A program made the position numbers and the translations under genes. Shown piece by piece: positions 15,512 to 15,846 of a stretch of DNA of 64,000 nt. This stretch comes from Bacteroidia bacterium. GTDB taxonomy: Bacteria; Bacteroidota; Bacteroidia; Cytophagales; Cyclobacteriaceae. The stretch is taken from positions 1 through 64,000 of the forward strand of contig JAUHYU010000007.1 of NCBI GenBank assembly GCA_030426345.1. Reading direction: 5' to 3'. How positions within the stretch are numbered: the stretch's first letter is position 1; each line of letters begins with the position of its first letter. Below the pieces are notes generated by a model. It searched no databases, was not told the DNA's origin, and saw nothing but the letters and a program-made list of their open reading frames with translations.

Positions 15512-15621
15512 ATTTATAAAGAAGGGTGGAGAGACTGGCTCTGTGAAACCCTAGCAACCTGGTGGCAATTGCCAAGGTGCTAATTCCTGATTCCGTCAAA
15601 TATTGTCGGAAGTATATAAAT
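15512..15621 (+). ncRNA. SAM-I (S-box) riboswitch
   Basis: The conserved S-box core is visible: GGGTGGAGAGACTGGC (15524-15539), GAAACCCTAGCAACC (15545-15559), then GGTGCTAATTCC (15575-15586) and the closing GGAAGTATA near 15608. Terminal arms ATTTATA (15512-15518) and TATAAAT (15615-15621) pair as P1. SAM binding should shut off the downstream metY-metX genes for methionine synthesis. It starts about 120 bases after the preceding stop. I could not identify its promoter. Confidence 0.92.
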
Positions 15622-15629
15622 TGAAAAAG

Positions 15630-15755
15630 ATGAAACAAATCAGCAATAATTTTAGTTCCCGAATATCAGTAGCAATTGATTTTGCCATGATTGCTTCCTG
15701 CATTTCCCCGATTTTTATGGGCTGTAGGCACATGCCTTACTGTCTGGCAGTATAG
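15630..15755 (+). CDS. Possible 41-residue leader peptide between the SAM riboswitch and metY
   Basis: A short frame opens nine bases after the riboswitch (MKQISNNFSSRISVAIDFAM...) and ends in GCRHMPYCLAV. It has five Met and three Cys residues in 41 and a hydrophobic middle. Its stop codon (15753-15755) lies in the loop of a hairpin whose 5' arm is the last codons of the frame (15741-15775), the geometry of a translation-dependent attenuator. Function is inferred: I know no homologue, and it could be chance. Confidence 0.4.
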   Translation: MKQISNNFSSRISVAIDFAMIASCISPIFMGCRHMPYCLAV

Positions 15756-15775
15756 CATCTCATTGCTGTCAGACA
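15741..15775 (+). promoter_or_regulatory. Hairpin at the end of the metY leader
   Basis: TGTCTGGCAG (15741-15750) pairs with CTGTCAGACA (15766-15775), ten base pairs with one G-U. Two more pairs (15751-15752 with 15764-15765) extend it. No U-run follows, so it is not a classical terminator. It lies 71 bases before metY and could act by masking or exposing RNA when the short upstream frame is translated. Confidence 0.5.
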
Positions 15776-15846
15776 AAGAGTGACCCTGCACTGAACCAGG
15801 AAATTGAAGAGAACCCAAAACTATTTTTATACAAAACAATACTACA

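Follow-up and report, generated by a model that had tools for sequence, protein, structure and literature searches.

A SAM-I riboswitch joined to a short leader frame with a cysteine- and methionine-rich end upstream of metY in Bacteroidota

The window analysed here is a stretch of 64,000 nucleotides from a member of the Cyclobacteriaceae (contig JAUHYU010000007.1), in which metY is preceded by a long leader and followed by a metX-like gene (Table 1). The aptamer at the start of this leader covers positions 1-108 of the 108 of the RF00162 model and exceeds its gathering score of 44.4; by sequence and structure score it is a SAM-I riboswitch, whose binding of SAM is putative. The original prediction, made from the letters of the sequence, had described three layers in front of metY, namely the aptamer, a frame of 41 codons and a hairpin with the stop codon of the frame in its loop, and all of them were recovered in the window. 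The candidate -7 element lies at the same place in an alignment of seven leaders from the same genus, and the version found in L191 is TACTTTTG; the motif TAnnTTTG is given for the Flavobacterium sigma-A in the accessible text of PMC9723704. A sigma-70 promoter scan of the window leader was set aside as uninformative for Bacteroidota. The pairs of the possible hairpin H2 hardly vary among the seven leaders and it is absent from the window's own minimum-energy fold, so that H2 is to be considered putative. The fold of the whole window leader is not significantly better than those of its shuffles (z -1.41, with 8 of 100 shuffles equalling it). Between metY and the metX-like gene, which lie on the same strand, there is also a perfect palindrome of 52 nt (17182-17233, 26-nt arms with zero spacer), which may be a terminator or a processing site.

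Table 1. Features of the metY locus, numbered from the first letter of the window
Feature	Position	Strand	Basis and details
Candidate -7 promoter element TATCATTG	15477-15484	+	Bacteroidota type TAnnTTTG, 5/6 fixed positions
5' hairpin H0, candidate anti-P1	15492-15515	+	Single-sequence fold of 15490-15520; consensus fold of 7 leaders
SAM-I riboswitch aptamer	15511-15622	+	RF00162 covariance match, 80.9 bits; P1 strands 15511-15518 (5') and 15615-15622 (3')
Leader frame, 41 codons	15630-15755	+	ATG 15630-15632, TAG 15753-15755; ATG 7 nt behind P1
Hairpin H1	15741-15775	+	15741-15752 pairs with 15764-15775, 12 bp; stop codon of the frame in the loop
Segment GAGTGACCCTGCACT, possible small hairpin H2	15778-15792	+	Near-identical in 7 same-genus leaders (alignment and consensus fold)
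metY, O-acetylhomoserine/O-acetylserine sulfhydrylase, 439 aa	15847-17166	+	PF01053; TIGR01326 664.6 bits, cut-off 495.1
metX-like homoserine acyltransferase	17254-18297	+	TIGR01392 343.5 bits (below cut-off 500); PRK00175.1 323.4 of 331

The peptide encoded by the leader frame, MKQISNNFSSRISVAIDFAMIASCISPIFMGCRHMPYCLAV, contains four methionines, one of which is the start, and three cysteines; the latter are encoded by codons 24, 32 and 38 and the internal methionines by codons 20, 30 and 35. When the interior of the frame was shuffled by single nucleotides, 10 of the 1855 shuffles that stayed open had at least three Cys together with at least three Met, and the Met and Cys content of the window frame is, by itself, moderately above chance. 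Its tail, ending in RHMPYCLAV, is poor, with one Cys in the last 8 codons and two in the last 12. Searched against 59 genomes, its own included, the 41-residue peptide gave a best E-value of 0.0565 outside its own locus; it had no match in Pfam, and together with three other leader peptides it had none in NCBIfam. These searches did not reveal the family of leaders described below, which was recognised solely by reading the leaders themselves, and of which the window copy is a weak, diluted member.

Within the genus the leader can be followed position by position. All seven same-genus genomes compared (7/7) have an aptamer-metY leader with a frame of 35-43 codons, whose last 12 codons include from one to four Cys; the tails are RCMCCC in L191, YCLAV in the window and RCMRCS, RCCQVI, RYC, SMQYC and VMCM in the others. 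In the window, the region of H1 (15735-15780) folds with -18.6 kcal/mol (z -4.1, with 0 of 200 shuffles as good), and the 5' arm of the hairpin begins exactly at the last Cys codon, TGT 15741-15743. Across the seven leaders 6 of the 10 aligned H1 pairs have changed on both sides, the covariation score is reached by 0 of 500 shuffles, and 95.7% of the alignment cells are paired, compared with 25.7-55.7% when the arms are slid by 1-3 columns. All ten pairs are formed in five leaders, nine in L008 and eight in L017. The stop codon of the frame lies in the H1 loop in the window and in L008, in the 5' arm in four leaders, and three bases before the arm in L017, where it precedes the aligned Tyr-Cys codons. 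One check named with the original prediction was to compare metY leaders of relatives for the frame and the hairpin. Within the genus both are conserved, the frame in all seven leaders and H1 with covariation, and the placement of the stop in the loop is confined to the window and L008.

The consensus fold of the seven leaders also suggests a long-range pairing, which most of them can form, between an aptamer segment, TTCCTGA, and TCAGGAA behind H1 (alignment columns 116-122 and 358-364). This pairing is putative, and outside the genus TCAGG is not enriched, being present in 7 of 65 leaders with a shuffle mean of 4.3.

In order to describe the leader beyond the genus, SAM-I aptamers were collected from genomes related to that of the window at the level of genus, family, order or class, and from 80 genomes picked only because they hold the best 80 MetY relatives. 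Aptamers were placed by a covariance model, and the frame that was read is the first one of 12-80 codons with an ATG within 30 nt of the aptamer end. Twenty loci were hand-picked before reading from a list of best matches and are not a random sample; 40 further loci were chosen, irrespective of their frames, from same-class (four of them same-order) places among the matches listed. Unique leaders were counted, which removed one identical sequence of 78 metY leaders and left 77, and four MetY loci (L127, L133, L135, L139), in which a different long frame comes first, were filed as 'other'.

Of these 77 unique aptamer-metY leaders, 70 carry a short frame near the aptamer end. Counting the last 12 codons, at least two Cys are found in 59 leaders, at least three in 50 and at least four in 40, and the tail is missing in 18; typical tails end in ..CMCCC, ..MCCCCCC or ..RMCCCCACCC. 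Leaders in which the aptamer precedes metH behave differently, with a frame in 1/24 and a Cys tail in 0/24. Dinucleotide shuffling gave at least three Cys in a mean of 0.4 leaders and a maximum of 3 (200 shuffles), against 60 observed out of 92. The enrichment is in frame with the start, as TGY codons in the last 12 codons are distributed over the three frames as 337/103/18 and ATG codons as 97/2/9. Methionine makes up 10.6% of tail codons versus 1.3% of body codons, and at least one Met is present in 60 of 76 tails. A concentration of codons for the amino acids of the pathway in a short frame is thus present in the family (59/77 leaders, and for Met too) and weak in the window. The distance between P1 and the start codon is nearly fixed: of 82 leaders, 58 have a spacing of 7-9 nt and 71 one of 6-10 nt. 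The body of the frame is hardly conserved even among near relatives, the bias over codon positions is slight (61/53/78 in nine pairs) and the Cys-tailed frames range from 19 to 64 codons (median 39, n=76).

The same type of leader was found before sulfate-assimilation genes, namely those for a ferredoxin (L027, L168, L169, L294, L315), for PAPS reductase (L029, L240) and for a member of the nitrite/sulfite reductase family (L310), and Cys-tail leaders occur in Pedobacter, Mucilaginibacter, Hymenobacter and Pontibacter. We consider the existence of a composite leader, formed by an aptamer and a Cys/Met-tailed frame, near certain. The proposed association of a riboswitch with a sulfur-amino-acid leader frame is real and widespread, with the qualification that what is conserved is not the body of the peptide but its start 7-9 nt behind P1 and its tail; and the description of the frame as rich in Met and Cys, modest for the window with its three Cys, is overwhelmingly beyond chance in the relatives.

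The tail goes together with the aptamer and with its type. In the set chosen by MetY similarity the tail is present in 44 of the 55 loci with an aptamer and missing in 11, whereas among 25 MetY loci without an aptamer a Cys-rich short frame was found in two (Fisher p 8e-10), even though a laxer rule was used for the latter, accepting any ATG within 500 nt and at least three Cys. At L107, where no aptamer was detected, a short frame MSMCCCMCMPKMQ lies upstream of metY. Considering all unique leaders, the tail is present in 72 of 98 whose P1 end does not begin with G (mostly TATAA-like), in 3/3 with the P1 end GATAAATT and in 1/77 with other G-initial ends (mostly GATAAG- or GATGAG-like). We call 'TATAA-type' those leaders in which the last 8 aptamer bases are not G-initial, a pattern that also lets in a small number of unusual ends, for example AAATAAGTC in L188 and L189. 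Among the 40 aptamers taken irrespective of frames the tail occurs in 4/8 of the TATAA-type and in 0/32 of the GAT-type. The window's genome offers an internal control, as its other SAM-I aptamer (L058, before metH) is of the GAT-type and is not followed by such a frame. Finally, 29 of the best 30 matches of a phylum-wide search were counted (L205 was left out), 27 of them from other classes and many before metY. The P1 end is GAT-like in 28 of these and AAATAAGAG in the remaining one; judged by eye, 0 of the 29 listed frames end in a Cys cluster.

A different expression platform is present within the same-genus genomes, as in L188, L189 and L193 SAM-I aptamers of another kind are followed by a hairpin and a run of T. 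The product of the gene behind them begins, after a short start, with LKLGIFGFG and is presumably homoserine-dehydrogenase-like.

The search was also reversed, starting from five Cys codons followed by a stop (L264-L321, 63 matches after removing those inside long frames). Among the matches listed there were 19 short frames with an in-frame ATG, of which 9 lie behind an aptamer: eight of these aptamers were flagged by pattern (L294, L295, L298, L310, L314, L315, L316, L320), including three whose leaders had been collected before or are near twins of such leaders, and the ninth (L321) by the covariance model, a run of which covered 16 of the 19 frames. Two weak SAM-I-like aptamers followed by a Cys-tailed leader frame were also seen, in L300 (1320-1432, plus strand, 23.2 bits with the working covariance model) and in L302 (1586-1699, minus strand, 31.5 bits); the latter scores 26.6 bits against RF00162, below the threshold of 44.4, and the protein encoded further on in L302 has no Pfam match. 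These could possibly represent a divergent SAM aptamer. A gene for a PhyH-family dioxygenase in L293 is preceded, at a distance of 52 nt, by a frame whose last seven codons encode Cys (match near 1501), and the working covariance model found no SAM-I aptamer there; a stand-alone Cys leader is possible at this locus.

Upstream of the aptamer, the 3' arm of H0 (15506-15515) shares bases 15511-15515 with the 5' strand of P1 in the fold of the window, and because of these shared bases H0 and the full P1 partly exclude each other. H0 was predicted from single sequences and from one genus alignment. Adding the GATAAATT ends to the TATAA-type and omitting 27 leaders in which the aptamer start was missed by the pattern or lies too near the end, a hairpin reaching P1 is predicted for 81 of the 95 TATAA-type leaders, with a mean z of -2.80 (se 0.14), versus 20 of the 56 GAT-type ones, with a mean z of -0.30 (se 0.15). 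The 3' strand of P1, TATAAATT, is located 8-15 nt upstream of the AUG of the window's leader frame. Given this distance, the simplest reading of the anatomy is that SAM, by forming P1, would close the region where translation of the leader frame initiates.

Downstream of the frame no common solution emerged. Behind the frame, 2 of 64 leaders have a site resembling an intrinsic terminator, compared with 23 of 71 behind GAT-type aptamers, and the terminator scan of the window gave none at 15380-15900. An intrinsic terminator with its antiterminator, by which an attenuator would be recognised, was looked for and not found in the window or, beyond those two leaders, in the family, and for this reason we do not file the composite leader as a classical attenuator; it may work like one all the same. 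Downstream of the stop, folding is stronger than in shuffles (mean z -1.21, se 0.18, n=68), but a common attenuator fold was rejected, as the alignments of the different clades yield different hairpins and no single architecture. Pairing of the Cys codons with a downstream element exceeds chance slightly across the family (mean z -0.52, se 0.14, versus -0.11, se 0.13, in the control). These duplex and fold tests were limited to leaders with enough sequence (69, 67, 68 and 72). In the 60 nt that follow the frame, C is more frequent than G in 87.5% of the 64 leaders versus 66% of the 71 GAT-type ones, an excess that gives a weak hint of Rho; by analogy with other systems, Rho-dependent termination would fit these leaders. 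The translational attenuation named in the original prediction is one possible mode, as regulation may act on transcription, on translation or on the stability of the RNA.

The reading that we prefer, and hold to be rather probable from the arrangement of the sequences, is that SAM controls whether translation of the leader frame starts, and that the end of this frame senses the supply of cysteine, and perhaps of methionine. It builds on elements that are seen in the sequences: the aptamer, the frame, the tail in relatives, the near-fixed spacing, the predicted overlap of H0 and P1 and the covarying H1. Without SAM, H0 would engage the 5' half of P1, and the 3' strand TATAAATT would then be free for initiation; on binding of SAM, P1 would form, the base of H0 would dissolve and the initiation region would be covered, so that the leader frame would stay untranslated. 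A ribosome translating the frame would meet at its end the Cys codons mixed with Met codons, and when charged Cys-tRNA (possibly also Met-tRNA) is scarce it would pause there, keeping open the hairpin that lies around the stop codon (this is H1 in the genus, other hairpins elsewhere) and shielding the RNA behind. The pause would allow expression of metY, while fast passage of the ribosome, or translation blocked by SAM, would turn it off, probably through Rho-dependent termination or decay, since sites resembling intrinsic terminators are rare in these leaders. Sensing of Cys by the tail is likely for the family and putative in the window's own species, whose tail is diluted.

Other explanations must be set against this one, and two of them take the Cys codons as unimportant. 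In the window's genus the frame could be a decaying relic, with Cys codons that have drifted at homologous places and a hairpin that alone matters. Its tails other than RCMCCC of L191 (RYC, RCCQVI, YCLAV, VMCM, SMQYC, RCMRCS), and the stop of L017 before the aligned Tyr-Cys codons, are consistent with such decay, but 7/7 leaders keep an open frame of 35-43 codons that starts shortly behind P1 and has at least one Cys near its end, and we regard the relic as possible, if rather unlikely. Alternatively the riboswitch alone could regulate, the frame being simply a relay: SAM would block its translation, Rho would end the untranslated RNA and the Cys tail would be incidental. For M. tuberculosis, the accessible text of PMC12810186 describes a leader frame that is controlled by a riboswitch and linked to Rho-dependent termination, and some TATAA-type leaders do have a frame lacking the Cys tail (for example L071, L073, L178 and L185); this explanation, however, leaves without a cause the enrichment of Cys and Met, which concerns the last codons only and is in frame only, and appears to us improbable.

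The other two give the tail a different function. It might belong to a functional Cys-rich small protein, binding metals or thiols and co-regulated with metY, as the stability of frame and Cys cluster could suggest; a body that is barely conserved between near relatives, lengths from 19 to 64 residues and the fruitless searches in Pfam (window peptide) and NCBIfam (window peptide and three others) make this very unlikely. The TGYTGY tract might instead act as an RNA element, either a pairing partner or a protein site, rather than as codons, and in L087, L088, L092 and L118 it can indeed pair with a downstream element containing CAACA. Such an element would hardly account for the strong preference for one frame, for the near-fixed distance of the start, or for the fact that TGT and TGC are swapped in 54 of 194 aligned Cys/Cys codon pairs, and we give it very little credit. 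We maintain the gated, cysteine-sensing frame as the best reading.

Comparing these leaders with known systems, the aptamer resembles SAM-I (S-box) RNAs of RF00162 in its full-length match and in preceding a methionine gene, and differs from them in the leader frame 7-9 nt behind P1 and in the upstream hairpin overlapping P1; relative to the GAT-type aptamers, it is the rarity of terminator-like sites that stands out. The polycysteine leader frames of mycobacteria (Canestrari 2020, as described in PMC9031893 and PMC13236596) are also short, contain Cys codons, precede sulfur genes and are reported to respond to cysteine, but in the accessible parts of those papers they are leaderless and no riboswitch is mentioned. 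The present frames follow directly on a SAM-I aptamer, include Met codons among the Cys codons and belong to a different phylum. Leader peptides with runs of Cys near the stop have been reported for cys operons of Actinobacteria, with no terminator hairpin seen and Rho suggested (PMC1262725), and uORFC-8-2 before cysS in Rhodobacterales combines Cys codons in a short frame with an intrinsic terminator (PMC8632094); unlike the present leaders, neither is linked to a riboswitch in the text available from these sources. A parallel for the gating is offered by the uORFs of M. tuberculosis controlled by the Mbox (rv1805A, PMC12810186) and by a B12 riboswitch (ppe2, PMC11260477), in which translation of a short frame that matters downstream is gated by a riboswitch, with Rho involved for the Mbox; as far as the accessible text goes, they have other ligands, belong to another phylum and no codon run sensing an amino acid is described. 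Within Bacteroidota, the portions available of two papers give clues for leader-peptide attenuation before amino-acid operons of F. psychrophilum (PMC9723704) and leader-peptide-like sORFs in B. thetaiotaomicron (PMC7366714). The parts are each known, namely SAM-I riboswitches, Cys-codon leaders and riboswitch-gated leader frames. In the accessible main text of openly licensed papers we found no report joining a riboswitch with a Cys-codon leader frame, no description of these Bacteroidota leaders and no instance of the combination with near-fixed spacing and an anti-P1 hairpin.

Control by riboswitches and control by leader peptides sensing amino acids are usually treated apart. In the present case one leader combines, one behind the other, an aptamer for a sulfur metabolite and a sensor for sulfur amino acids that is probably read by the ribosome, and the arrangement recurs across many genera. 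Since a homology search with the window peptide finds nothing, the leader frames behind known riboswitches are worth reading. Judging from sequence comparison, we would put at about even chances the broader proposal of a widespread Bacteroidota module, in which a SAM-I aptamer with an anti-P1 platform licenses a leader frame, its Cys/Met tail acts as a second sensor (of charged tRNA-Cys, perhaps tRNA-Met) and the two together make the expression of metY and of genes for sulfate assimilation conditional on both SAM and cysteine. If this is true, sulfur supply would be read by a natural RNA gate with two inputs, SAM as the end product and cysteine as the entry product. Bacteroidota make little use of Shine-Dalgarno sequences, and the module, if true, would also show how such a phylum builds a translational SAM-I switch.
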